From the NCBI GenBank assembly GCA_023255445.1, contig JALRIL010000155.1, forward strand, positions 1-36,010: a stretch of DNA of 36,010 bases, given 5' to 3'. The notes beneath the pieces were generated by a model that worked only from the letters and a program-made list of their open reading frames with translations, was not told the origin of the DNA and searched no databases. The translations under genes were made by a program, and so were the position numbers. How positions within the stretch are numbered: position 1 is the stretch's first letter; each line of letters opens with the position of its first letter. Below are positions 2,904 to 18,078 of this stretch, piece after piece. The stretch is from Limnohabitans sp. Its GTDB lineage: Bacteria; Pseudomonadota; Gammaproteobacteria; Burkholderiales; Burkholderiaceae_C.

Positions 2904-3605
2904 CTACACCACCTTGAGCGGGTAGCCCAGGGCATAGCCATAACCGCGCAAGGTGCGTATGGTGTCCTCGGGAGCGCCACATGCACTGAGTTTCTTGCGC
3001 AAGGTGCTGACCCGCATTTCCAGGTTGGCTGGCAGCAGTCCCTTGTCTTTGGTGTCGATCAGCTGCATGGCTTGCCAGCGCTCCAGTTGCTGGCCAGGGG
3101 CACGACTCAGCGCGGCCAAAAGCAGGCTCTCGCCCTGGGTCAAGAGCACGGGTTCTTTGGGGCCGGTCAGCCACCAGGTTTGGCTGTTGAGCTCCAGTGC
3201 AAGGTGCTCGGTCGAGGTTTGCGTGGGTCGGACACGACGCCCCAGGCTGTTGATACAGGCGAGCAGTTCGGCTTGTTCCACCGGCTTGATCAGATAGTTG
3301 TCGGCCCCGCAGGCGTAGCCCTCCAGGCGGTCTTGCAGTTGCCCCCGGGCCGTCATGAGCACGATGCCTGCCTTGGGGTGGCTTTGCCGAATGCGATCGG
3401 CCAGGCTGAAACCATTTTCGCCGGGCAGGTTGACGTCAATGATGTACAGGTCAGGCAGGCTGTGCGTGGGGGTGTTGTCGATGTCTTCGGCGCAGTCCAG
3501 GCTGGTGACGCGGTGTCCCTGGTCTTGCAGAAAGGCTGTGGTGGCTTCGCGCAAACCATCGTTGTCTTCCACGATCAGGATGTGCAGGGACTGGGGCGAA
3601 TGCAT
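2904..3605 (-). CDS. OmpR/PhoB-family response regulator
   Basis: LHILIVEDNDGLREATTAFL...DLYIIDVNLPGENGFSLADRIRQ...LMTARG...KPVE receiver plus winged-helix C-terminus (EMRVSTLRKKLSACG...IRTLRGYGYAL). Start ATG at 3605. Confidence 0.92.
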   Translation of the reverse strand: MHSPQSLHILIVEDNDGLREATTAFLQDQGHRVTSLDCAEDIDNTPTHSLPDLYIIDVNLPGENGFSLADRIRQSHPKAGIVLMTARGQLQDRLEGYACGADNYLIKPVEQAELLACINSLGRRVRPTQTSTEHLALELNSQTWWLTGPKEPVLLTQGESLLLAALSRAPGQQLERWQAMQLIDTKDKGLLPANLEMRVSTLRKKLSACGAPEDTIRTLRGYGYALGYPLKVV

Positions 3606-3661
3606 GTGTGTCAGGTAGAAAACGTGTTGGCGTAAATGTAGGCAATGTGCGCAGCTGCGGA

Positions 3662-3677
3662 CCAAATCTAACCAAAT
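3662..3677 (-). promoter_or_regulatory. TTTGG-N5-TTTGG direct repeat upstream of the response regulator
   Basis: CCAAATctaaCCAAAT on + strand; reads ATTTGGttagATTTGG on the regulator's strand, between kinase stop and regulator start. Confidence 0.4.
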
Positions 3678-3683
3678 GCGGCT

Positions 3684-5579
3684 TCAAGTACCCTTGGGCA
3701 GGGTCAATACAAAGCGCACCTGTTCACCAAACGGATCGTAGTCCACGCGCCCTCCGAGTTTGTGCATCAGGTTGCGCACCAGGAACAAACCCAGGCCCGT
3801 GCCTGCCTGGCGTTGTGCGCCAGGGGTACGGTAGTACTTGCCAAACACTTTCTCCCTGTCGGGCCAGCCGGATTTGCCCACCGTGTTGCTGATCAACAGC
3901 CTCTCAACGGGATGCGTATCTGTCGCCTGTAATGCTTCCATCTGAATGGGGGTATCGGGTGCGGCGTATTTGCAGGCGTTTTCCAGCAAGTTGCTGATCA
4001 CAATGAACAACAATTGCGGGTCGGTCAACAGGGGCCATTGCGCAGGCAGATTGACATGTACACGCTCAGGGGCCGGACAGGCAGCGACAGCATCGTGCAG
4101 CATGGCCACCAGATCAACATGGGAGGCATGAATCTGCAGGCCCTGGTCGCCCAACTGGGTGCTTTGCAGGCAGCGCTCGATCACGGCGTTCATTTCTCGG
4201 ATGGCGCGTTTGATGTCCAGTGCCCCTTTGCTGCCTGGGTCCAAACGCATGTGCATGGTCGCCAAGGGTGTTTTGAGCTCGTGGGTCAACATCGTCAACA
4301 ACTGCTCTTGTTCCTGCCGAGCAAGGCGGTCTTGCTCGGCTTGCAGGTGCAGCCGCTCAAGTTGCTGCTGCGCCTGCTGTTGATGTTTTTGCCTCACATA
4401 CGCTCGGTACTGCAGCATAAGCAAGACCAAAAAGCCGCTGGCCAGGCCATGGGCCTGCACCAGGTAAATCGCGATCTCGGCACCTTTGGTCAGGCCCAGC
4501 CCGGGCAAGGAGGCCACAGCCAGAATCAGCAGCAGCAAGCTGTAAAAGCCGATCACAATACGACGAGGCAGGGCGGGTGGATTCAAAGAATCTTGCTCTC
4601 TCCACCCTCGTGCCAGCAAGGCAGCAATCAACAGCACGACGGGGGTGATCAGCACCGTAGACAGATTGATTTGCAAGGCCAGGCGGGGCATATCGAAGAC
4701 AAAAAACAAACTTAAATTCACAAACAACATGCCTGCCAACAAGCGCAGCGCCCACAGTGTCCAGAGGCGAGGCTTGAATTCGCTGAGGAAGACCAAGTGG
4801 AAATAAATGCCCGCACTGGTGGCCACCATGCTGAACAGGGACGACAGTAAATCCAGCGAATGCGCTGACCAGGACTGGGGCCAAAAGATGCGCATGTACC
4901 CCAGCACACACAAGGCGTAAATCAAGGCGGCCAGCTGTTTAAGGCCAAACAAGCCCGCCACCTTTTCCTTGGTGAACAGCCAGTGCGTGATACCCCAAAG
5001 CGAAAAAATGCTGACCAACCCCACATACAGTGCAAACAGCAGATGATCGGTTTGCACCAGGTTCAGCAAGTCGGGTTCACGCACCACGGTGGTTGAGAGT
5101 TGACGAGTGCTGGTCGAGGTGACGCGAAGCCAGATGTCCCTGGGCTGCTCGTTTGCGGCCAGCGGGACCAAAAAAGCCATGCCTTTCAAACTGGAAGCGC
5201 TTGGGTGGTGTGTGTCGCCTGTGCGGCCGGCCATGCCGTTGGGCGCAGCGGGATCGAAGACCTGAATGTCGTCCAGGTACACAGGTCGAATGCGCAACAC
5301 CAGATCGTCCTGCACGGGGCCAGGATTGGCCGCTGTACCCGCAATTCGTAAGCGGACCCACACCACAGAGTCGCCAAAGCCCTTGCTGAGCACCCCTTCA
5401 TAGGGGGTGGTTTCACGGCTCTGTACCTGGGGCCATTGCAGCTGGCCAGTGGAGTCTTCCAGCCAGGCGCGTTCTGTGATGAGGTCTTGGCCCGCAAACG
5501 CAGGTGTGACGGATTGCAGCCAGAACCCGATGAGCCAAGCGACCCATGTCAGGAATTTAATTCCTTTAAATTTATACAT
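3684..5579 (-). CDS. 7TMR-DISM sensor histidine kinase
   Basis: Signal peptide MYKFKGIKFLTWVAWLIGFWLQSVTPAFA; DISM extracellular-like N-terminus; 7 hydrophobic helices; H-box LTHELKTPLATM, N-box NLLENACKYA, G-box GTGLGLFLV. Confidence 0.92.
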   Translation of the reverse strand: MYKFKGIKFLTWVAWLIGFWLQSVTPAFAGQDLITERAWLEDSTGQLQWPQVQSRETTPYEGVLSKGFGDSVVWVRLRIAGTAANPGPVQDDLVLRIRPVYLDDIQVFDPAAPNGMAGRTGDTHHPSASSLKGMAFLVPLAANEQPRDIWLRVTSTSTRQLSTTVVREPDLLNLVQTDHLLFALYVGLVSIFSLWGITHWLFTKEKVAGLFGLKQLAALIYALCVLGYMRIFWPQSWSAHSLDLLSSLFSMVATSAGIYFHLVFLSEFKPRLWTLWALRLLAGMLFVNLSLFFVFDMPRLALQINLSTVLITPVVLLIAALLARGWREQDSLNPPALPRRIVIGFYSLLLLILAVASLPGLGLTKGAEIAIYLVQAHGLASGFLVLLMLQYRAYVRQKHQQQAQQQLERLHLQAEQDRLARQEQEQLLTMLTHELKTPLATMHMRLDPGSKGALDIKRAIREMNAVIERCLQSTQLGDQGLQIHASHVDLVAMLHDAVAACPAPERVHVNLPAQWPLLTDPQLLFIVISNLLENACKYAAPDTPIQMEALQATDTHPVERLLISNTVGKSGWPDREKVFGKYYRTPGAQRQAGTGLGLFLVRNLMHKLGGRVDYDPFGEQVRFVLTLPKGT

Positions 5580-5594
5580 TTAATGAATTTGTGA

Positions 5595-5719
5595 ATTTTG
5601 GGATATTTTGGATTGCGGCGATTTTGGTTGGTATGCTTGCAAAACGCTTAAATGAACACTTTTTGTTGTTTAAAAATGAGTTCAAAAGCACACATCTTTC
5701 TTTTGGTTTAATGGTTTGG
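5595..5719 (+). promoter_or_regulatory. AT-rich divergent intergenic region with five same-strand TTTGG half-sites (5597, 5607, 5623, 5702, 5715)
   Basis: Direct read; 5597-5611 is TTTGG-gatat-TTTGG (10-bp period). Confidence 0.45.
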
Positions 5720-5740
5720 AATTGATATGAAAAGAAGCAC

Positions 5741-7306
5741 TTGAGCAAAGTGGTGCAAATGTCTGCTGTGGCCTTGGCCTGTGTGGTGATGGCAGGGTGT
5801 TCGAGTGTAGGTCCTGTGGCCATCAAGCCACAAGACATCCAGGCTATGAACAAGCAAGACGCTGAGGCCATGCGGAAAAATGTGGAGCCGATCACGGGCT
5901 CGCTGACGCTGGAAGAAGCGCTGGCACGTGCCCTGAAATACAACCTCGACCACCGCGCCAAAATGATGGAGCAGGCCTTGGCCTTGGGTCAGTTGGATGT
6001 GGGCAAGTTCGACATGCTGCCCAAGATCATGGTGCAAGCAGGTTACTCAAACCGCAGTATTCCACGCTTTACGGCTTCTCAGGGTTACACGGAATGGCTG
6101 CGAGATGGAACCATTTCCAAAGGCACCAGCTTCTCAACCTCTTCCGAGGACTACCACTACACCGCCGAACTGGGTATGACCTGGAGCTTGCTGGATGTGG
6201 GTTTGGGCTACTATGGCGCCAAACAAAACGAAGCACGCTTCCAGATCGCGTCTGAGAAGCGTCGCAAAGCGATGCAGCTGCTGATGCAAGACGTGCGCAA
6301 TGCCTACTGGCGTGCGGCCAGCGCGCAGCTGCTCAAGGCTGACGTGAAAAAGACCATTGCCCTGGCAGAAGAGGCGATGGCGGACTCCAAAAAAATGGCC
6401 GCTGAGCGCGTGAAGAATCCGCTGGAGCCCCTGCGTTACCAGCGCCAGTTGCTCGAGAACCTGCGCCTGCTGGAGAACATCAACCAGGAACTGTCTTCCG
6501 CACAGGTTGAGTTGGCTTCCTTGATCAACGCGCCTTTGAATCAAGCCATTGTGATTGCGGACGCCGAGATCAAAAACATCGACAGCCATATTGAGGACGT
6601 GCCGCACGAGCGCCTGGAAGAGGTGGCCATGCTTGGCAACCCCGACTTGCGCGAGCAGCACTACAACACCGCCATTGCTCAGGAAGAAACCCGTCGCACT
6701 CTGGTGCGCATGTTCCCGAACCTGGTGTTCAACTACGGCGTCAAGTACGACACCGACAACTACCTGATGAACCGCAACTGGAACGAAGCGGGTCTGCAGC
6801 TGTCGTTCAACCTGATGAACCTGTTCACGGGCAGCTCGCAAATGAAGCTGGCCGAGGCGGGCGTCAAGCTTGCGGACCAGCGCCGCATGGCCATGCAAAT
6901 GACCGTGCTTACGCAAATGCACCTGGCACGTTTGGCAGTCATCAACAGCCGCAGCCAGTTTGACCGCGCTGATGCGGTCTACACCACGGACCAGAAGATC
7001 AGCACGATCATGAAGGCCCGCCAGTCTGTGCAGCAGCAAAGCAAGCTGGACTTGGTGAGCACCCAGGCTTCGGAAATTTTGAGCCTGCTGCGCCGCTACC
7101 AGGCGCTGGCACAAGTGCAAGTGGCCGAGAACCGCTTGATTGCCACCTTGGGCCTGGACATGGACATTGGCAGCTTGAGCGATGTGTCCCTCAAGGACCT
7201 GACTGAAAAGCTTCGCCAAAACCAGGCGCCATGGAAGCAACTGATTGAACAGCCGGCCAGCGCTACGAGCCTGGTTAAAGTGCCTGCCGTGGTCAGCAAG
7301 TGGTGA
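5741..7306 (+). CDS. TolC-family outer membrane protein, probable lipoprotein
   Basis: Lipobox VVMAGCSS; SLTLEEALARALKYNLDHR; two TolC-like halves (…VRNAYWRAASAQ…, …LARLAVINSRSQFDRADAVY…). Start ambiguous: only TTG at 5741 or ATG at 5759 in frame. Confidence 0.88.
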   Translation: MSKVVQMSAVALACVVMAGCSSVGPVAIKPQDIQAMNKQDAEAMRKNVEPITGSLTLEEALARALKYNLDHRAKMMEQALALGQLDVGKFDMLPKIMVQAGYSNRSIPRFTASQGYTEWLRDGTISKGTSFSTSSEDYHYTAELGMTWSLLDVGLGYYGAKQNEARFQIASEKRRKAMQLLMQDVRNAYWRAASAQLLKADVKKTIALAEEAMADSKKMAAERVKNPLEPLRYQRQLLENLRLLENINQELSSAQVELASLINAPLNQAIVIADAEIKNIDSHIEDVPHERLEEVAMLGNPDLREQHYNTAIAQEETRRTLVRMFPNLVFNYGVKYDTDNYLMNRNWNEAGLQLSFNLMNLFTGSSQMKLAEAGVKLADQRRMAMQMTVLTQMHLARLAVINSRSQFDRADAVYTTDQKISTIMKARQSVQQQSKLDLVSTQASEILSLLRRYQALAQVQVAENRLIATLGLDMDIGSLSDVSLKDLTEKLRQNQAPWKQLIEQPASATSLVKVPAVVSKW

Positions 7307-8091
7307 AACGGTTGAGTTCCAAGGCTGCAGTGCTGGGCCTTTGGGCTTGCGCTGCACTGCAAGCCACTGCTCAGCAGGCTGTGGTGCCTGTGCCGGGCGC
7401 AGCTGTTAAGCCCGCTATGGAGCGCTACGACATTCGTGCCCAGTTGATGCCGCGTCGCTACACCACGATTGCTGCAGAAATTGGCGCCAAGGTGTCCGGC
7501 TTGCCTGTGGCCGAAGGCTCGGCGTTTCGGGCGGGGCAGGTGTTGGTGAGTTTTGATTGCTCTTTGCAACGCGCGCAACTGGATAAGGCTCAGGCTGAAC
7601 TGGAAGGTGCAGAGCAAACGCTCAAATCCAATTTGCGTCTGCTGGAGCTGAACTCGGTGGGGCAGCTGGAACTTGATCTGTCCAAGTCGGCGGCCAACAA
7701 AGCCAAGGCGGAGGTTGGGGCGAACAAAGCCGTCTTGGCCAAGTGCCAGGTGCCCGCCCCATTTGCGGGTCGCGTGGCCGAGCAAAAAGTGCGCGAGCAG
7801 CAGTATGTGCAGCCAGGCCAGCCCCTGTTGGACATTCTGGACGACAGCGTGCTGGAGCTCGAGTTTCTGGTGCCGTCCAAGTGGCTGCGCTGGCTCAAAG
7901 TTGGTGGCGCGTTTGATGTGCAGATCGACGAAACCCAAAAAACCTACCCCGCGCGTTTTACGCGCATCGGCGCACGGGTTGACCCCGTTAGCCAGTCCGT
8001 CAAAGTGGCTGCGGCCATTCACGGCAAATTTCCTGAATTGATTGCAGGCATGAGCGGCAAGGTGCTGATCAAGCCAAACGAAGGACAGTGA
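7300..8091 (+). CDS. periplasmic adaptor subunit (HlyD/RND membrane-fusion family), short form
   Basis: Signal peptide-like N-terminus; IAAEIGAKVSGLPVAEGSAFRAGQVLVSFDC lipoyl half, coiled coil, PAPFAGRVAEQKVREQQYVQPGQPLLDILDDSVLELEFLVP. Overlaps tolC-like stop. Confidence 0.9.
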   Translation: MVKRLSSKAAVLGLWACAALQATAQQAVVPVPGAAVKPAMERYDIRAQLMPRRYTTIAAEIGAKVSGLPVAEGSAFRAGQVLVSFDCSLQRAQLDKAQAELEGAEQTLKSNLRLLELNSVGQLELDLSKSAANKAKAEVGANKAVLAKCQVPAPFAGRVAEQKVREQQYVQPGQPLLDILDDSVLELEFLVPSKWLRWLKVGGAFDVQIDETQKTYPARFTRIGARVDPVSQSVKVAAAIHGKFPELIAGMSGKVLIKPNEGQ

Positions 8092-8092
8092 C

Positions 8093-11000
8093 ATGTCAAA
8101 CAACAAACACCTGGGTTTGAAGCGCCGCAACAGCGGCATGATGGCGTTGGAACAGCGCTTTATGTTTGATGGGGCGGCGGTGGATACGCTGCACGACCAA
8201 TTGGTCGACTCATCTGTAGCAGATGCTTCAACAGTTGTCGTGGCTGATGTTTTTAAATTTGACGCGTCCACGTCTAGCCTGTCGAGTACGGCCCAGTTGG
8301 CCCATCAACAAGTGCGCGACTACCTGGCTGGGGCAACCGATGCGCAGTTGTTTGATATTTTCAATGGCGGAAAGACGGCGCCTGACGCTGCTTGGACGGA
8401 GCGATTGGCCAGCCTGCGCGAGGCTTTTGCGAACGGTTCATTCAATGTGAACGTGGTGGCCATGGACAGCGCCAGCCAGTTCACGGCTGTTGCTGCTTTT
8501 GCCGAAAATGGCCCTGATGGCCAACCCACAATCTTCATCAACACCTACTGGTTTGGGATGTTTGATGCGCCCGATGCCACCCGTGCCTTGGTGGAAGAAG
8601 TTGGCCATGCTTTTGATGCCTACTTGAATCCCAATGCCGATTCGGCAGGGGACGAAGGCGAGTCTTTCGCAGACATGGTGATTGATGGCTCAGTTAGCCA
8701 AGAGCAAAGCTCTGCCTTGTTGACCCAAAATGACCACGGCCAAGTGGTAGTCAACGGCGTTTCGTACGAAGTCGAATTCGCCTCATTTAATTTTGTGAAC
8801 GCGTACCACATGGTGTACGACTGGGACACGCAAAACAACAGCGAAGATACGACTGAGCGTTGGGCGAGCAAAGAACAGAATTTGCATTACTTCAATACTG
8901 CAGGCCTTGGTGTCGTCAGTATTTCTGATGGGTCAAACGGAACCAACTTTAGCGGCAACGATGTGTCAGCTGTTGCGTTGACGATTGGTGGGCAAACCTA
9001 CTACGGCTGGATCAGCCGTCCCATCAAGTCCAACGGCATTGTTCGTGGTTTTTACTTCTGGACCGATGTCAACTTCACATCATTGGCCTTGGCGCAAGCA
9101 GACGGCAACCAGGATAGTGCTGTCGGAGATCCAGGTAATTCAGATAACCGTGGTTTTGTGCTGGTGGTTGATCAAACTTGGTTTAACCAACAAATCGCTG
9201 ATACGGATTTCACCAAGGAATTCACATCCACATCTAAAGATGTTCTTGACGGTTACGTGACAAGCGGGAGTACGTTGACTGTTGCGAGTGTTGGCTCTTC
9301 GTCGGATCGAGTGGATAGTGCGTTGAATGGTGTCGCCGAGAGTAACACTAACATGGCGCCGAGTGCAGTCAATGATGTGGCCTCAGGTACACCCAGTGCA
9401 ACGCCCTCTGCCGATCAAGGAAGCGCTGCTTTGGAGGAGGGCTACAACACCAACACTTCTACGGTGATCACGGCCACGATTGACGGTTCGGGCAACGTGC
9501 TTGCCAACGACACTGACTCCAATTCCGACAGTCTTAGTGTCACCACGATCACAAGCAAATTGACAGGGGCTTCAGGTACCGCATCTTCAGGTGGAACGCA
9601 AATCGTTGGTAAGTACGGTACGCTGACCATGCAGGCAGACGGTGATTGGACTTACGAAGTCAATAACTCAAGCGCAACGATCAACGCCTTGCTCAGCGGA
9701 AACATTCAGGAAGACTTCACCTACACAGCCAGCGACGGTAAAGGTGGAACTTCTACAGCCACACTGACTGTGCAGATCAAAGGAAGCAACGATGCGCCCG
9801 TGGCTACAAATGATTACAACATCGCCAAAGAGCACACCAGTACCAACGACACTGGATATAACGCCACTGGCAATGTGTTGCCCAATGACACAGATGTAGA
9901 TACGGGAGATACGAAAAGTATTGCAGGGATTGTTCAGCTGGGTAATGCTGATGCGGCCACAATTGTTTCTACAACAACTGACTCAATTGTGAGATTTGAC
10001 GCTTCGGCTGAACCCTCATTTGGTGCGAACCAAGTTGAGAGCAAAAAACTGTACCTGAATGTGTCTGGAACTTATAGAGCGATTTACGGGTCCAGCAATC
10101 TGCAAGTCTATGCACTCTCCGGAGGAGTTACAGATTCCAACAACGATGACATTTGGGATGTGAAACTGAGCGAGGATGTTTACTATTACATGGTAAACAC
10201 AACGCGTTATGACATTTCCCTTGCTGAACTTGCTAATCGTCAAGTTGCTTTTTCTTCTTCCACTTCGGCAACAACTAATGGTGGTGGAAGTGATAAGTTG
10301 GCGCTGCTCACAACCACAGAGTCGACAGGGACTTACACAGTCGATCTTTCAAATTACACAGGAAGCATAGCTGTTGGAGCTGCTCTGTGGTACGACAACG
10401 ATTCAACGGCCAATATCAACTACGTCAATAGCCTTTTGACTGTTCAGTCAATCGCTTATGACGCGAATGGAAATCCAACACAAGTGACGTTGAACGGAAG
10501 GATTCCGTTTTCAACAGGTACTGCGATTGAATTCAGAAGCTCGCTCTCTACGGGCGTCACATATTCCGGCCAATACGGCACCTTGAACTTGGCTGCGAAC
10601 GGGTCTTATACATACACACCCTATACAGACAATTCCGCAATTAACGATGGTGACATCGTCACAGAAGTGTTCGACTACACCATGCAGGACACGGCGGGGC
10701 AAACGAGCGCTGCCAAGCTGTACATCACAGTGACGGGTTCAGGCACCAACGATCCTGTGCTTACTGCTGATACGGCAACGGCCTATGAGGCTGGCGTCGG
10801 TCGGGACGGAAGTAACACGGTCATTAATGGAACAACCGTCTATACCGGAGCCGCTGCAACGGGGGACGTTTTGTCGAATGACAAGGAGAAATACAGCGCG
10901 TCCTCCAACCAAATTGGAACGGGTTATGTAGCGCAGGTAGGTAGAACCGGCGCGGGGAGCTATACAACCATTGATGCCACAGGTGATGGCCGAACAACCA

Positions 11001-14000
11001 CCGATTCTGCGACCGTCACAGGCCTCTATGGCAGTTTATTGATTGATGATCATGGATCGTTCACTTACACAGTCGCCGATTCCAACATAACAGTAAACGC
11101 ACTGCAGGTGGGTCAAACGCTGACGGAAACATTCAGCTACCAAGTGAAAAATACCTTAAGTCCCATTGGATACTCATGGTCGACCTTGACGATCACTATC
11201 CAAGGCACAAACGACACTCCTACAGCTGTTGCAGACACGGGTTCTGCACTGACCGAAGATGTCACTACATCCACCAGCGGTAATGTCACGACCAACGACA
11301 CCGATGTAGATACCGGTGATACAAAAACCGTTACCAAGGCTGGTACATCCTCAGCAAATACCTCGATCACAGCGGGTACGACCTCCGCCAACGGCTTGGC
11401 TGTAGATGGTACCTACGGGCGCTTGATCATTGGTGCAGATGGCACCTACACCTACACACTGGGCGTTACATCTGCACAAAACACAGCTGTCCAAGCATTG
11501 AACAGTGCAAGCACGCCACCTACAGAAACGTTTAACTACGAACTTACCGACAGCCGCGGAGCTACATCCACGACAACTTTGACATTTACCGTTAATGGGA
11601 CAAACGAGCCCCCGGTCAACCAGTTGAACGGAGCGTCTTTCTCCAATACATCGACAACAACTCTGACAACGGCCATAAACACTGATTTGGTCTTTACAGG
11701 TGTAAACGCGATTTCCGTGGCAGATGCTGATAATGACTTGGCGTCTGTCACGCTGACCGTTGAACATGGAACGCTCAGCTTTACTGGTGGAACCGCGGCT
11801 TCAACAACTGGCAGTTCAGTCACCATCACGGGTACGCAGGCCAGTATCAACGCTGCATTGGCTTATTTGAAGTACACGCCAACCACGAGTTACACAGGGT
11901 CCGATTACCTGACGATTGCCAGTAAAGATGCAACCAACCGTTGGGATACCGATGGCATCGCCATCAATATTCCAACGGCATTCACTGGTCCCACTGTACT
12001 GGAAAGCGATCTTTCAACAGGCAGTAACTCCGCGGGCAGCGGTGAGGTTAACAACATCACGTTGACGGCGCCAACAGGTCAAACCTTTGGAGCCAATACA
12101 CAATCAGGAACCGATACCTACGGAAGCTGGACCTTGACTACCGGTGGTGTTTTCACTTATACGCTCACCAGCGCGCCTGCCGTCAGTGGTGCAAACAGCA
12201 CCCGCACCGTCAACATTCTGACCTATGACGCTTTCGGCAATGCCACCACCAACACGGTTACAGTCACCATCACCGACGATGCGCCAGTTGCCAACGCCAA
12301 CACCAAAACTGTCAACGAGGGCGCATCGGCTTCAGGTAATGTGCTGACAGATGGTACTGTTGACGTGTTTGGCGCTGATGGTGCCAAAACAACTTCACCC
12401 ACAGGAGGAGTTGTTGGCGTTCGCGCATCGGGTGGAGACACCACTACAGCGGTCACTTCAGGTACGGGTTCGTCTATTTCAGGTACGTATGGGTCGTTAA
12501 CGCTCAATGCCGACGGTAGCTATACCTATACGGCGACCGCGTCCATTTCTGCGACGGTGACCGATACCTTCGTCTACACCATCGAGGATGCAGACGGAGA
12601 TCGATCCACTACAACGCTCACGATAACAGTCAACGACGCCTCTACGCCCACCATTGCAGTGACTGGTTATGGCCCTGTTAATGAGGGGTCTACATACGCG
12701 ACTTTTACTGTTCAACCTGGTAACAGCTCGAGCAGTGACCTTATCGACTTGAGTGTGTCGAATGGAACGACTTCCTTGAGTACTCCTGCAATGGAGTATT
12801 CGACTGACGGTACCAACTGGATTGTGTACGACAACACCCACAAACCCAATGGGGGAGGTGTTTTTTACGTTCGTGTGAACATCACCAGCGAAGCTGATAC
12901 GACTTACGAAGGTTCAGAAAGCTTCTCGTTAGTGGCTGCTTACACCGCCAACTCATCGATTACCGACTCGGCATCTACGTCAATTATTGATGACGGCACG
13001 GGCACAAACTACACCGGCAACGTCAGCGGTGGTAGCCCTGTAACGAATACGACCAGTTTGAATGATGACCGTGCGTTGGCAGTGAACTCGATCACGGTCA
13101 ATGAAGGTGGTGGTTATGCGGTCTTCACGGTGAGTGCGAATGCAGGCCAGACGATGAACCTGGCGCTGAGCAACGGCACGACTAATCCGACGGCGACGAG
13201 CGGGACGGACTACACCAACGCGCTGGAGTACTGGGATGGATCGGCTTGGGTTTCTTACACGGCGGGCTTCACGGTGCCGGGCACCAGCAATGCGGCGGTG
13301 TCGCTGTATGTGCGTGTGGCCATCACCAACGACAGCACGTTTGAAAACGCTGAAGACTTCAAGCTGACGGCGACGTACACCAGCGGAGCGAGCCGTTCGG
13401 CCACGGGTGTGGCCACCATTGTGGACGATGGCACGGGGACTAAATACGACGGCACAATCACCAGTGGTTCACCTACCACAGACACTAATAATCTAGATGA
13501 TGACCGTTCTGGCCCCATCGCAGTTACCGGCGGCAACTACAACGAAAACTCCCCCCGTGCCGTTTTCACTGTTACGGCTAATTCCGGACAAGTGCTGACC
13601 CTTGATGTTCAAAATGCCGCGCAGCCTGGAAAGGCACCTACGGGCGACAACGAAGGTAAGGCCAACGATTCGTTAGACACAGCTGATATTTACTACTCAT
13701 TGGACGGTGGCACCACATGGCAGCTGTACACCGGCCCAATCACTGCGGGCAATGTGCCAGTGCTGGTTGCTGTTGACATTACGAACGAGCGTGATGATGT
13801 CTACGAAGGTGAAGAGCAGCTCAAGCTGGTGGTTACCTCGGGCGGTCAGTCTGCGTCTGGCTTCTCTTCGATCTTTGATGATGGCACCGGCGTTGTGACG
13901 AATGAGATCACAGAAGATACGCAAAACGATACGGGTGCAAATGATCCATCGGTGACCAAGGACGACGATCGCCCTAAACCTGTGGATTCAACTGCTTCCC

Positions 14001-14632
14001 CCGCGCCTTTGATGGAGCCAGCGCTGATTCAGGCACCGCAAGTTATTGCTGAGTCGAGGCCTCAAGTTCAGTCTTTCAGTGGAGTACTGCGTCCAGCAGA
14101 GCCACCTATCTCTCTGGGCCAGACTTTGACCAGTGAGAACGGACACCCGATTTTGGTCAGTGAAACTGCGTTGCCAGGCCTGAGCTTGTATCAAGGCATC
14201 ACAGACCAGTTTGTGCAATCGACCACAGACGTTACCAAGATCAGTATTCCCTTTGACGCCTTTATCCATTCGGATAAAAACGCCGTGATCAAACTGCAGG
14301 CGAAGCAGTCCGATGACTCGCCCTTGCCAAGTTGGGTGGAGTTTGATCCTGCCGCCGGTACATTCACGGTCAAGCCGCCCAAGGACTTCAAAGGTAAGCT
14401 GGACCTGAAGGTCATTGCCCGCGATGACCAAGGCAACGAGGCCGTGTCGATGTTCCAGATGTTCGTGGGTGAACAAGACGCGCCCGCAACCGAGCGCCCG
14501 CAAGGCCGCAACAGCTTTACAGAAAAGCTGCGCATGGCTGGCAAGCGCCCGGTGACCTTGGTGCGTATGGCCGATGGTTCGCACAAAGCGTTGGAGCGAG
14601 TTGTGGCGGTTAACAAAGTGCGCGCTGGATGA
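8093..14632 (+). CDS. giant (2179 aa) repeat-rich surface/secreted protein: LEPR-XLL-like N-terminal motif, EExGH domain, VCBS/cadherin-like repeats, Calx-beta repeats, basic C-terminal tail
   Basis: MALEQRFMFDGAAV near N-terminus; VEEVGHAFD...GDEGESFAD; repeated GNVLxNDTD...GTYGxLxxxxDGxYTYT...DTFxYTxxDxxGxxSTxTLTxTVxGTND blocks; Calx-beta blocks ending in DDGTGT; no GGxGxDxux nonapeptides seen. Confidence 0.93.
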   Translation: MSNNKHLGLKRRNSGMMALEQRFMFDGAAVDTLHDQLVDSSVADASTVVVADVFKFDASTSSLSSTAQLAHQQVRDYLAGATDAQLFDIFNGGKTAPDAAWTERLASLREAFANGSFNVNVVAMDSASQFTAVAAFAENGPDGQPTIFINTYWFGMFDAPDATRALVEEVGHAFDAYLNPNADSAGDEGESFADMVIDGSVSQEQSSALLTQNDHGQVVVNGVSYEVEFASFNFVNAYHMVYDWDTQNNSEDTTERWASKEQNLHYFNTAGLGVVSISDGSNGTNFSGNDVSAVALTIGGQTYYGWISRPIKSNGIVRGFYFWTDVNFTSLALAQADGNQDSAVGDPGNSDNRGFVLVVDQTWFNQQIADTDFTKEFTSTSKDVLDGYVTSGSTLTVASVGSSSDRVDSALNGVAESNTNMAPSAVNDVASGTPSATPSADQGSAALEEGYNTNTSTVITATIDGSGNVLANDTDSNSDSLSVTTITSKLTGASGTASSGGTQIVGKYGTLTMQADGDWTYEVNNSSATINALLSGNIQEDFTYTASDGKGGTSTATLTVQIKGSNDAPVATNDYNIAKEHTSTNDTGYNATGNVLPNDTDVDTGDTKSIAGIVQLGNADAATIVSTTTDSIVRFDASAEPSFGANQVESKKLYLNVSGTYRAIYGSSNLQVYALSGGVTDSNNDDIWDVKLSEDVYYYMVNTTRYDISLAELANRQVAFSSSTSATTNGGGSDKLALLTTTESTGTYTVDLSNYTGSIAVGAALWYDNDSTANINYVNSLLTVQSIAYDANGNPTQVTLNGRIPFSTGTAIEFRSSLSTGVTYSGQYGTLNLAANGSYTYTPYTDNSAINDGDIVTEVFDYTMQDTAGQTSAAKLYITVTGSGTNDPVLTADTATAYEAGVGRDGSNTVINGTTVYTGAAATGDVLSNDKEKYSASSNQIGTGYVAQVGRTGAGSYTTIDATGDGRTTTDSATVTGLYGSLLIDDHGSFTYTVADSNITVNALQVGQTLTETFSYQVKNTLSPIGYSWSTLTITIQGTNDTPTAVADTGSALTEDVTTSTSGNVTTNDTDVDTGDTKTVTKAGTSSANTSITAGTTSANGLAVDGTYGRLIIGADGTYTYTLGVTSAQNTAVQALNSASTPPTETFNYELTDSRGATSTTTLTFTVNGTNEPPVNQLNGASFSNTSTTTLTTAINTDLVFTGVNAISVADADNDLASVTLTVEHGTLSFTGGTAASTTGSSVTITGTQASINAALAYLKYTPTTSYTGSDYLTIASKDATNRWDTDGIAINIPTAFTGPTVLESDLSTGSNSAGSGEVNNITLTAPTGQTFGANTQSGTDTYGSWTLTTGGVFTYTLTSAPAVSGANSTRTVNILTYDAFGNATTNTVTVTITDDAPVANANTKTVNEGASASGNVLTDGTVDVFGADGAKTTSPTGGVVGVRASGGDTTTAVTSGTGSSISGTYGSLTLNADGSYTYTATASISATVTDTFVYTIEDADGDRSTTTLTITVNDASTPTIAVTGYGPVNEGSTYATFTVQPGNSSSSDLIDLSVSNGTTSLSTPAMEYSTDGTNWIVYDNTHKPNGGGVFYVRVNITSEADTTYEGSESFSLVAAYTANSSITDSASTSIIDDGTGTNYTGNVSGGSPVTNTTSLNDDRALAVNSITVNEGGGYAVFTVSANAGQTMNLALSNGTTNPTATSGTDYTNALEYWDGSAWVSYTAGFTVPGTSNAAVSLYVRVAITNDSTFENAEDFKLTATYTSGASRSATGVATIVDDGTGTKYDGTITSGSPTTDTNNLDDDRSGPIAVTGGNYNENSPRAVFTVTANSGQVLTLDVQNAAQPGKAPTGDNEGKANDSLDTADIYYSLDGGTTWQLYTGPITAGNVPVLVAVDITNERDDVYEGEEQLKLVVTSGGQSASGFSSIFDDGTGVVTNEITEDTQNDTGANDPSVTKDDDRPKPVDSTASPAPLMEPALIQAPQVIAESRPQVQSFSGVLRPAEPPISLGQTLTSENGHPILVSETALPGLSLYQGITDQFVQSTTDVTKISIPFDAFIHSDKNAVIKLQAKQSDDSPLPSWVEFDPAAGTFTVKPPKDFKGKLDLKVIARDDQGNEAVSMFQMFVGEQDAPATERPQGRNSFTEKLRMAGKRPVTLVRMADGSHKALERVVAVNKVRAG
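9450..12650 (+). repeat. VCBS / cadherin-like repeat region within giant protein
   Basis: Recurring N(D/E)TD + YG.L...DGSYTYT + TLTITV.(G/N)(T/D) pattern around 9490-9800, 9870-10760, 10790-11220, 11240-11610, 12290-12640; cadherin-like HGTLSFTGG...INAALAYLKYTPTTSYTGSDYLTI at about 11610-11980. Confidence 0.8.
12650..13975 (+). repeat. three tandem Calx-beta-like repeats with conserved DDGTG...DDR linkers
   Basis: PVNEGSTYATFTVQPG / TVNEGGGYAVFTVSANAGQ / NYNENSPRAVFTVTANSGQ; linkers IDDGTGTNYTG...LNDDR, VDDGTGTKYDG...LDDDR, FDDGTGVVTNE...KDDDR. Confidence 0.8.
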
Positions 14633-15969
14633 TGCAAGCCTTTGGGGATTTGTCTCGGCGTGCTCGTCATGCCGAGACGGACCGTGAGCTCGGGTTTGTG
14701 TGGGTCAATGACACCATGGCCTTGGCGCCTTACCGCCAGGCGGCGTTGTGGTTGGCGAACGAGGGTGTGTGGTGTTTGTCTGGCGTGGTGCAGGTGGATG
14801 CCAATGTGCCCCATGCCCAGTGGCTAGACGCCGTCGCGCACCATGTACACGCCTTGGAGCCAGGGCAGGGCGCCGTCCGTAACTTTACGGCTGCAGATTT
14901 ACCTGCAGACCTGGCCAGCCAGTGGGCACAGTGGTGGCCGGCGCACGCTGTGTGGTTAGGCTCAACCCATGCACACATCAAAGGCGCAGGCATCTTGCTG
15001 CGCGAAGAGCCTTGGCAACCCGACGAACTGGCCGCCCTGCAAGAGTGGGCCGATGTGTGGTGGCATGCCTTTGCGGCCCTGCATAAGCCGAAGGCACTGC
15101 GCTTACGCGGCTGGAAAGACAAGCTCAAAAACGCATTCGCATGGTCGCCAGACAAGCCCTGGTTCAAGCAGCGCCGCCTGCAAATTTTGGGCGCATTGGT
15201 GGCGGTTTTGCTCTGGCCTGTTCGTTTGACGGTGCTGGCCCCCGGCGAGCTGGTGCCCGCGCACCCAGTGGTGGTGCGCGCCCCGCTCGATGGCGTGATA
15301 GACGTGTTCCATGTCCAACCCAACCAGCAGGTCAAAGCGCAGCAACCTTTGTTCAGTTTTGACGAGATGGTGATCCAGGCGCGCCTTGAGGTGGCCCAGC
15401 AAACCCTGGCTACCGCCGAGACGGACTACCGCCAGACCAGCCAAATGGCCTTGAGCGACGCGCGCTCCAAATCGCAGTTGGGTTTGCTGGCGGGCAAGGT
15501 GGAAGAGCGCCGCGCCGAAACGGACTACCTCCAAGAGCAATTGGCCCGCGCACGGGTGCTTGCGCCTCAGGCTGGCGTGGTGCTGATGGACGACCCCTCG
15601 GAGTGGATGGGTAAACCCGTGAGCACGGGTGAGCGTATTTTGCGCATTGCGACGCTCAACGATATGGAGGTGGAGGCCTGGTTGCCTCTGGCCGATGCCA
15701 TTGCGCTGGAGCCGGGCGATGCGGTCACCTTGTACCTCAGCGCCAGCCCGCTGTCGCCCGTGTCGGCCACCTTGCGCTACATGGCGCACGATGCCGTGCA
15801 ACGCCCGGATGGCAGCTTTGCCTATCGGGTGCGTGCCACGCTGGACGCCAAAACCGAGCATCGCGTAGGCCTGAAGGGCACAGCGCGTGTGCATGGTCAG
15901 TGGGTGCCCATGGTGTATTGGGCGCTGCGCCGGCCCTGGGCCACGGTGCGTGCCTATCTGGGTTGGTAA
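14629..15969 (+). CDS. HlyD-like inner-membrane adaptor with soluble (GAF-like?) N-terminal domain
   Basis: N-terminal ~185 aa soluble region (VWVNDTMALAPYRQAALWL), single TM (LQILGALVAVLLWPVRLTVLAPGELVP), lipoyl halves VVVRAPLDGVIDVFHVQPNQQVKAQQPLFSFD and ARVLAPQAGVVLMDDPSEWMGKPVSTGERIL. Confidence 0.87.
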   Translation: MMQAFGDLSRRARHAETDRELGFVWVNDTMALAPYRQAALWLANEGVWCLSGVVQVDANVPHAQWLDAVAHHVHALEPGQGAVRNFTAADLPADLASQWAQWWPAHAVWLGSTHAHIKGAGILLREEPWQPDELAALQEWADVWWHAFAALHKPKALRLRGWKDKLKNAFAWSPDKPWFKQRRLQILGALVAVLLWPVRLTVLAPGELVPAHPVVVRAPLDGVIDVFHVQPNQQVKAQQPLFSFDEMVIQARLEVAQQTLATAETDYRQTSQMALSDARSKSQLGLLAGKVEERRAETDYLQEQLARARVLAPQAGVVLMDDPSEWMGKPVSTGERILRIATLNDMEVEAWLPLADAIALEPGDAVTLYLSASPLSPVSATLRYMAHDAVQRPDGSFAYRVRATLDAKTEHRVGLKGTARVHGQWVPMVYWALRRPWATVRAYLGW

Positions 15970-15972
15970 GCC

Positions 15973-18078
15973 ATGCCCTTGCCTCGTTTGCGCGAAGAGC
16001 TTGACCTGCTGCCAGGCCCCAATCAGCCCGATGGTCAGCCTACCTGGACTTTGCACGACCCGGTGCGCAACCAGTTTTTCCGGATTGATTGGCCTACGCT
16101 CGAAATTTTGCAGCGCTGGGACATGGACGACCCCGAGCAAATGGCCGCCGACGTTTCAGCGCACACCACCTTGGCGATGAGTGCTGAAGACGTGGTGCAA
16201 GTAGCCCAATTTTTGGTGCAACACCAACTGGTGCAAGCCGCAGCAGCAGACGCTCCCCGCAAGATGGCCGGGCAGTGGCACCGCCTGCAGGGCACGGCCA
16301 TGCAGTGGTTGCTGCACCACTATTTGTTTTTCCGCATTCCGTTGCTCAGACCTGATGCCTGGCTGACCCGTTGGTTACCGGTGGCTCGGTGGTTTGGCGC
16401 CCGTGCTTTCATGGGCATCACTGCCCTGGCTTTGGTGCTGGGCCTGGCTCAGGTGTTTCGTCGGTGGGATGTCTTTACGGCATCGCTGGTGGATACCTTC
16501 AACCTTGAAGGTTTGCTGTCTTACGGTGTGGCGCTGTTTTTTGTGAAGTTGCTACACGAGCTCGGACACGCCTTTACCGCCAAACACTACGGCTGCCGGG
16601 TACCGACCATGGGCGTGGCGTTTTTGGTGATGTGGCCTGTGGCCTACACCGACACCAATGAAACCTGGCGCCTGACCAACAGGTTTCAGCGCTTGCGTGT
16701 GGCCAGTGCGGGCATTGTGACGGAGCTGGTCATTGCCGTATGGGCCACGCTGGCATGGGGGCTGTTGCCAGAGGGCGGTGTTCAGTCAGCGGCCTTTGTA
16801 CTGGCCACCACCAGTTGGGTGGCCACGCTGGCCATCAACGCCAGCCCGTTCATGCGCTTTGATGGTTATTTCATTGTCATGGACGCGTTGGACATGCCCA
16901 ACCTGCACGGCCGCAGTTTTGCGTTGGCCCGGTGGAAACTGCGTGAGTGGTTGTTTGGCTTGGGCGATGAGCCGCCAGAACATTTCAAGCCCACCAAGCA
17001 GGCAGCATTGATTGCTTTTGCCTGGGCTGTCTGGCTGTATCGCTTGGTACTGTTTCTGGGTATCGCTGTGCTGGTGTATCACTTCTTCATCAAGCTGGTG
17101 GGTATCTTTTTGTTTGTGGTCGAGATTGTCTGGTTCGTGGCCAAACCCATTGCGGCGGAGCTGGCGGTATGGCGCCAGCTGTGGCCCCAGATCCGGGAAA
17201 AGGCGAGGGGCCGTCAAACCGCACTTTGGGCGGTGGGTCTGTTGGCCCTTGTGCTGATGCCGTGGCCTGGCCGTATCTCGGCCAGCGCGGTGCTCAAGCC
17301 GCAAGAGTCCTGGCCCGTGTTTGCGCCTTCGGGGGCCTTTGTGCAGGCTTTGCCCTTCAAGCAAGGTGACATGGTCAAGGCCGGGCAAGCGCTGGCTATT
17401 TTGTATGTGCCCGATCTCGCTACGCGCCAACGTGCCTTGCAGGCACGGCTGGAGCAAGAGCGCTGGCAGGCCGAAGCTTCGGCTTTCAACGATGACATGC
17501 GCAAGCGCTGGAAGGTGGCTGAACAATCGTTTTATGCCACCCAGGCCGAGTTGCAGGGCGTGCAAACCGAGCAAAAGCAATTTTCACCTGTGGCGCCTTA
17601 TGACGGCCAGTTCATGGCGGCAGACCCTGACCTGGTGGCCGGTCAATGGGTGTCGAAAAAGGAAATGCTGGGCACGCTGATCAAGCAGGGCGGTGGCTGG
17701 CGTGTGGAGACCTGGCTGGACGAGGATGCGATCGCCACCGTGCAAGTCGGGCAGACCGCCATGTTTTATCCGGACAGTGGGGTTGGCGGTGTGTTGAAGC
17801 TCAAGGTCAGCAGCATCGATCACGATGCCAGCCATGTGCTGCCCAGGCGGGAATTGGCCAGCGTACTGGGTGGGCATCTGCTGACGCGCGAGAAAAACGG
17901 TTTGTTTGTGCCCGAACGTGCGGTGTACCGCGTGGCTTTCGATGCACCAGATGTGCCCGCAGCTTTGCAGCTGCAAAGCTGGCGCGGACATCTGGTGGTC
18001 CATGCGCAGTGGAGCAGCCCGGCAGCGCGGTATGTGCGCCAGGTCGTGTCGGTGCTGGTGCGTGAGTTCGGTTTTTAA
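15973..18078 (+). CDS. M50 (site-2 protease family) membrane metalloprotease fused to PqqD-like N-terminus and HlyD/lipoyl C-terminus
   Basis: LLHELGHAFTAKHYGCRVP zinc motif (HELGH at 16555-16569), NASPFMRFDGYFIVMD second motif (16837-16884), multiple TMs; C-terminal SASAVLKPQESWPVFAPSGAFVQALPFKQGDMVKAGQALAIL; N-terminal TWTLHDPVRNQFFRIDWPTLEIL...AQFLVQHQLV. Confidence 0.88.
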   Translation: MPLPRLREELDLLPGPNQPDGQPTWTLHDPVRNQFFRIDWPTLEILQRWDMDDPEQMAADVSAHTTLAMSAEDVVQVAQFLVQHQLVQAAAADAPRKMAGQWHRLQGTAMQWLLHHYLFFRIPLLRPDAWLTRWLPVARWFGARAFMGITALALVLGLAQVFRRWDVFTASLVDTFNLEGLLSYGVALFFVKLLHELGHAFTAKHYGCRVPTMGVAFLVMWPVAYTDTNETWRLTNRFQRLRVASAGIVTELVIAVWATLAWGLLPEGGVQSAAFVLATTSWVATLAINASPFMRFDGYFIVMDALDMPNLHGRSFALARWKLREWLFGLGDEPPEHFKPTKQAALIAFAWAVWLYRLVLFLGIAVLVYHFFIKLVGIFLFVVEIVWFVAKPIAAELAVWRQLWPQIREKARGRQTALWAVGLLALVLMPWPGRISASAVLKPQESWPVFAPSGAFVQALPFKQGDMVKAGQALAILYVPDLATRQRALQARLEQERWQAEASAFNDDMRKRWKVAEQSFYATQAELQGVQTEQKQFSPVAPYDGQFMAADPDLVAGQWVSKKEMLGTLIKQGGGWRVETWLDEDAIATVQVGQTAMFYPDSGVGGVLKLKVSSIDHDASHVLPRRELASVLGGHLLTREKNGLFVPERAVYRVAFDAPDVPAALQLQSWRGHLVVHAQWSSPAARYVRQVVSVLVREFGF

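Follow-up and report, generated by a model that had tools for sequence, protein, structure and literature searches.

Does the divergent promoter between a sensor kinase gene and a TolC-like gene carry the binding sites through which a neighboring two-component system controls an export operon? A first-pass annotation of the window (the whole 36,010-nucleotide stretch of DNA analyzed here) had proposed this from TTTGG words in the promoter. The window corresponds to contig C191 in a draft genome (G000) of 1.97 Mb and 80% completeness. We examined the regulator, the words themselves, and the orthologous loci of other genomes.

A two-component system beside an export operon

The window encodes an OmpR/PhoB-type response regulator of 233 aa (2904..3605, minus strand). 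Its Response_reg (PF00072) and Trans_reg_C (PF00486) domains scored above the Pfam cut-offs, which confirms the claim that an OmpR-type regulator is encoded next door. The start is likely the ATG at 3605 rather than the TTG at 3665, and orthologs align from about there. Residues D14, D57, T85, and K107 are invariant in eight orthologs. The putative recognition-helix region is nearly invariant across eight orthologs and differs in paralogs. Full-length relatives in the PDB are PrrA, BaeR, and BasR; by profile, BasR is one of the nearest with a solved structure. The protein did not reach the cut-off of any of the named NCBIfam equivalogs (OmpR, PhoB, PmrA, CpxR, and others); among the 25 models listed, its best equivalog score was 116 bits, against cut-offs of at least 250. 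It is a member of the OmpR/PhoB family, but none of the named equivalogs listed.

Directly upstream of the regulator gene is a sensor histidine kinase gene (3684..5579, minus strand; 631 aa) with 7TMR-DISMED2 and 7TM domains by Pfam. Its translation contains the H-box THELKTP, and the pair stays together in orthologs, as befits a cognate kinase. The parts of the literature accessible to our search contained no earlier description of this two-component system and no precedent for a 7TMR-DISM kinase with OmpR or adhesin control.

The export operon (5741-18078, plus strand) begins with a gene for a TolC-like outer membrane protein (5741..7306; Pfam OEP). It is followed by genes for an HlyD-like periplasmic adaptor (7300..8091; HlyD_3), a giant VCBS/cadherin-domain protein of 2179 aa (8093..14632; Cadherin_4, VCBS repeats), a second HlyD-like adaptor (14629..15969; HlyD_3), and an M50 intramembrane protease fused to an HlyD-like domain (15973..18078; Peptidase_M50, HlyD_3). 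The giant protein is probably a surface adhesin and the cargo of the operon; against a BapA/LapF-like model it reached 155 bits, where the cut-off is 180. A search of the genes in 5741-18078 gave no ABC ATPase, so the operon combines the giant protein, TolC, two HlyD, and M50-HlyD in a set that is not classical type I secretion. We found no precedent for M50/HlyD export in the portion of the literature that could be searched. Translation from the best-placed ATG of the TolC gene (5727) would end at a stop after five codons, and the open frame starts at the TTG at 5741. In this region (5727-5760), the gene may start at a codon other than ATG, or the draft sequence may contain a one-base frameshift; joining the frame across the stop would give a typical lipoprotein signal.

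One tandem repeat among five TTTGG words

The divergently oriented genes for the kinase and the TolC-like protein are separated by a gap of 161 bp (5580-5740) with 32% GC. The first-pass annotation had counted five same-strand TTTGG half-sites there, the first two exactly 10 bp apart. All five words are present on the plus strand, at 5597, 5607, 5623, 5702, and 5715, and the 10-bp distance is borne out by an exact match. Dinucleotide shuffles of the gap gave a mean of 1.5 words (P = 0.005 for five), and the repeat TTTGG-N5-TTTGG inside the gap has a P value of 0.012. This repeat, TTTGG-gatat-TTTGG (5597..5611, plus strand), is the predicted regulator operator before the export operon, and it is conserved in orthologs.

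The window holds two exact copies of TTTGG-N5-TTTGG. The other, which the first-pass annotation missed, is TTTGG-ttaga-TTTGG on the minus strand (3662..3676). Read from 3676 to 3662, it points toward the regulator gene. The gap that holds it, from the kinase stop (3684) to the regulator ATG (3605), is 78 bp long, and P = 0.001 there. It is the second predicted operator.

The other three words lack conservation, and this rules out a reading of all five as half-sites. The word at 5623..5627 follows the repeat and precedes the predicted -10 element, and those at 5702 and 5715 (5702..5719) lie in the predicted 5' leader without a conserved counterpart. The word at 5715 is located at the ribosome-binding region upstream of the ATG at 5727. 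Chance is the likely account of all three. The five half-sites should therefore become one operator of two half-sites, the pair at 5597-5611. TTTGG pairs spaced 16 bp apart, seen in five other loci, seem to reflect a common kinase-coding stretch, and we rejected them as half-sites.

The repeat is conserved beside regulator orthologs

Orthologs of the two-component system are present in seven other genomes (G011, G014, G306, G030, G035, G029, and G089), with regulators 63 to 68% identical. Together with G000 and a later find, L181, the comparison covers nine genomes. Phylogenetic footprinting had been named as a check on the proposed sites, with loss of the repeats in orthologous regions as the outcome that would speak against them. 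We found that the first pair is kept in all eight orthologous loci and in L181, whereas 5623, 5702, and 5715 are not. For the first pair, this supports the reading of the first-pass annotation. A repeat with promoter-like spacing lies in the kinase/regulator gap, before export genes, or in both places. However, the sites are not all independent, because some of the genomes are closely related. The genus of G306 is sampled by G306 alone.

In the kinase/regulator gap, the repeat is exact in G011 (TTTGGTTTTTTTTGG) and in G306, a different genus (TTTGGCTTCCTTTGG), and has one mismatch in G014 (TTTGGGTTGATTTGT). The gaps of G030, G035, G029, and G089 contain no clear operator. The divergent region of G306 has an exact repeat (TTTGGGTTTCTTTGG) that faces a giant cadherin/lectin-domain gene. 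That of G014 has a one-mismatch repeat (TTTGGATTTATTTAG) facing the orthologous TolC operon. The TolC operon of G011 is on another contig, with TTTAGTTTTTTTTGG upstream. Taken alone, these last two single sites are marginal (P = 0.07 in G014 and P = 0.04 in G011).

No TolC match was found in G035, G030, G029, or G089 at the threshold used. In G035 (exact) and G030 (one mismatch), a composite site (the repeat with a -10-like hexamer at the spacing described below) is directly upstream of an ShlB/FhaC-type gene that resembles the one of G011, and a gene for a filamentous-type protein of about 4600 aa follows. G011 has a one-mismatch composite site upstream of its own ShlB/FhaC gene. An exact composite site in G029, and exact half-sites with the hexamer TTAAAT in G089, precede a SapC-type gene, after which a large LEPR-motif protein begins. 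Target genes were called by Pfam in G011 and G029; the calls in G035, G030, and G089 rest on start-sequence match and gene order. TonB-ExbB-ExbD genes separate the regulator from the two-partner secretion operon (L110, 2388-4124; L174, 16187-17777; L175, 2048-3988). They were identified by Pfam in G011, where the tonB frame looks interrupted, and by similar position in G035 and G030.

A single-sequence search of named genomes with the kinase gave no matches. A search with the regulator alignment gave two new orthologs, L180 and L181, and records matching G030 and G089. In public records, the close orthologs come from metagenome-assembled genomes that carry the labels Comamonadaceae, Burkholderiales, and Comamonas. 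L181 has TTTGGATTGCTTTGG-N20-TAGCTT upstream of the kinase, which agrees with the spacing found before. In this Comamonas draft (region 941-1755), the site faces a HigB/HigA-like toxin-antitoxin pair and not a surface-protein gene, which makes it the one exception to the surface-protein theme. Upstream of the L181 operator is a further half-site in phase with it, TTTGT, the third in the row. L180 has no operator site, its kinase gene is missing, and its regulator N terminus is truncated or replaced. An intact-looking TolC gene adjoins them in the same region (5008-7585). L180 is possibly a natural co-loss of kinase, regulator N terminus, and operator, or else an assembly artefact.

The repeat has a fixed distance to a predicted -10 element

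The predicted -10 element of the export operon is TATGCT (5632..5637, plus strand). It starts 20 bp after the second half-site and has a TG one base upstream. That of the regulator gene is TACATT (3635..3640, minus strand), 21 bp after the second half-site, and G011 has TACATT at the same 21 bp. Among eight sites picked by half-site alone, TANNNT starts 20 or 21 bp after the second half-site in all eight; at offsets of 8 to 18 it occurs in none, and elsewhere only isolated ones occur. In total, 14 sites in the nine genomes read toward the downstream gene and have a -10-like hexamer starting 20 or 21 bp on (TANNNT in 13, TTNNNT in one). The spacing is independently tested by the first eight sites and L181 only, as the sites found with the composite query are not independent for it. 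The consensus of the 14 sites is TTTRG-N-TT-NN-TTTGG, with T at linker position 2 in 13 and at position 3 in 12.

The fixed 20/21-bp spacing to TANNNT places the second half-site at the -35 position. A site over -35 at a fixed distance to the -10, here a -10 predicted from sequence, is the arrangement of PhoB/PmrA-type activated promoters. No sigma-70 promoter with a good -35 was found in 3560-5800. In 5 of the 14 promoters, the start codon comes 6 to 7 nt after the hexamer, as in a leaderless message, and this lends support to the -10 assignment. These predicted -10 elements lie in L110 (near 2310 and 5499), L174 (15703), L175 (4065), and L101 (6964). The prediction is that the regulator message is leaderless in G011 and G306, as is the message of the shlB-type gene in G011, G035, and G030.

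The hexamer also decided the outcome of the genome scan that the first-pass annotation had suggested. The exact repeat occurs 7 times in the 1.97-Mb draft genome versus 5 for a reversed control, so TTTGG-N5-TTTGG alone is near background. However, when TANNNT was required 20 or 21 bp downstream, only the two window sites were left. Across 90 genomes, the exact composite gave 10 matches; 4 adjoin this two-component system, in the genomes G000, G011, and G029; a fifth, in G035, is 2.6 kb from it. With the -10 required and one mismatch allowed, per-genome totals likewise resemble the control. Therefore, the regulon seems local.

We then compared TTTGG with all other words, in a test that was designed after the motif and spacing were known and that shows that no other word is comparable. 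It covered 1024 five-mers at 17 spacings (0 to 16) in the eight loci, each as an exact repeat with TANNNT at 20/21 bp. TTTGG-N5 ranked first, with 7 sites in 5 genomes; the next best reached 2 genomes. With one mismatch allowed at N5, TTTGG reached 7 genomes and 11 sites, and the next best reached 3. Sixty-six control loci, which held paralogous or more distant two-component systems or other relatives of TolC, yielded one match, which we took as chance. The TolC orthologs of G007 and G012 (65 to 67% identity), which are without a close regulator ortholog, have no site.

A predicted operator of the neighboring regulator

We consider it very likely, judging from these comparisons of sequence, that the conserved TTTGG-N5-TTTGG is the operator of the neighboring OmpR-type activator, which would act locally, regulate its own gene, and serve the export of giant surface proteins. 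The word recurs at the same promoter distance, beside the regulator and before quite different giant-protein genes, so it is most likely the neighbor's site. The proposed link between the two-component system and the export operon gains support from the same pattern, as the repeat is kept with promoter spacing beside regulator orthologs. The 10-bp period of the conserved repeat at the predicted targets is in the range of OmpR/PhoB sites (10 to 11 bp).

In the mechanism that we propose, the 7TMR-DISM kinase (3684-5579) would phosphorylate the regulator (2904-3605), a step that activity may require. Two regulator protomers would then occupy TTTRG-N-TT-NN-TTTGG head-to-tail. Bound there, with the downstream half-site at -35, the regulator would recruit sigma-70 RNA polymerase to a target promoter that appears to have no good -35 of its own. 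The operator at 5597-5611 would drive the TolC-HlyD-giant protein-HlyD-M50 export operon, and the operator at 3676-3662 would drive the regulator's own gene, in positive autoregulation.

The same operator could instead repress, with a dimer on -35 blocking polymerase at both the export operon and the regulator gene. OmpR-family regulators activate or repress according to site position (PMC7380067), and the second half-site overlaps -35, where a bound protein can block polymerase too. However, an unaided promoter would need a good -35 hexamer, and there is none. The fixed 20/21-bp spacing to the -10 is what contact between an activator and polymerase demands, whereas a repressor site would tolerate variable positions. 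We regard repression as unlikely.

Slightly less likely still is that another transcription factor or an unusual sigma-factor promoter explains the element, with the regulator as a bystander. In principle, TTTGG-like -35 elements combined with TANNNT might define a promoter class. However, the exact composite is too rare for a general class, with its 10 matches in 90 genomes. Against a bystander, the sites travel with the regulator orthologs, even before unrelated target genes, and the TolC orthologs of genomes that have no close regulator ortholog lack them; tandem repeats of 10 bp also fit OmpR-type dimers. That TTTGG clusters merely by chance in AT-rich DNA between genes is very improbable. 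In favor of chance are the AT content of the gap (68%), the near-background count of the repeat when no -10 is required, and the lack of conservation of three of the five words. For the first pair, chance is contradicted by conservation at nine loci and two positions with a fixed promoter spacing, and by the first rank of TTTGG-N5 among all 5-mers in the open search.

The preferred reading, activation by the neighboring regulator, describes an operator of a known kind that is real by sequence, and its interest lies in the exchange of target modules. The regulator and operator probably form a cassette dedicated to giant surface proteins, in which operator and geometry stay constant and the driven module is exchanged between species. 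The exchanged modules are the ABC-less TolC/HlyD/M50 set, ShlB/FhaC two-partner secretion, SapC with a giant protein, and a giant cadherin-like protein. If so, the regulon would be defined by function, namely surface attachment, and not by gene homology, and target modules would have been exchanged while the regulator and operator stayed constant. This suggests that one sensor may command whichever giant adhesin-like protein a species carries, so the kinase signal may be a general attachment cue. The binding-site model TTTRG-N-TT-NN-TTTGG-N20/21-TANNNT is testable and predicts the regulon of the two-component system.

Comparison with known systems

The export operon is like the BapA/Bap/LapF type of adhesin type I secretion in that TolC-like and HlyD-like proteins are encoded with a giant VCBS/cadherin protein. 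It is unlike that type in lacking an ABC ATPase, in having an M50-HlyD fusion instead, and in a giant protein that scores below the cut-off of the adhesin model.

The CpxR box is GTAAA-N5-GTAAA. It shares with the predicted operator a 5-mer half-site, a 5-bp linker, and a 10-bp period, but differs in half-site sequence, and the regulator scored 70 bits against the CpxR model, far under the cut-off of 341. Its score against the PmrA equivalog was 105 bits, far under the cut-off of 330. A TTTGG half-site for OmpR-type regulators was not found in the part of the literature that our search reached, which is no proof of novelty. PmrA half-sites are 6-bp words of the CTTAAT/CCTAAG type with an 11-bp period, whereas those found here are TTTGG with a 10-bp period (PMC4660055, PMC3973317). 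In the PmrA pbgP promoter, -35 is at half-1 (PMC4660055), whereas here the downstream half-site is at -35. However, the PmrA/BasR box and the predicted operator share the 5-bp separation of half-sites (PDB 4s04, 8jo2). Head-to-tail tandem binding that overlaps -35 is a documented mode of PmrA and PhoB (PMC4660055). The operator described here is like the PmrA/BasR, PhoB, and OmpR boxes in its tandem half-sites, its predicted head-to-tail arrangement, and its overlap with -35 (PMC4660055, PMC3973317, PMC7380067).
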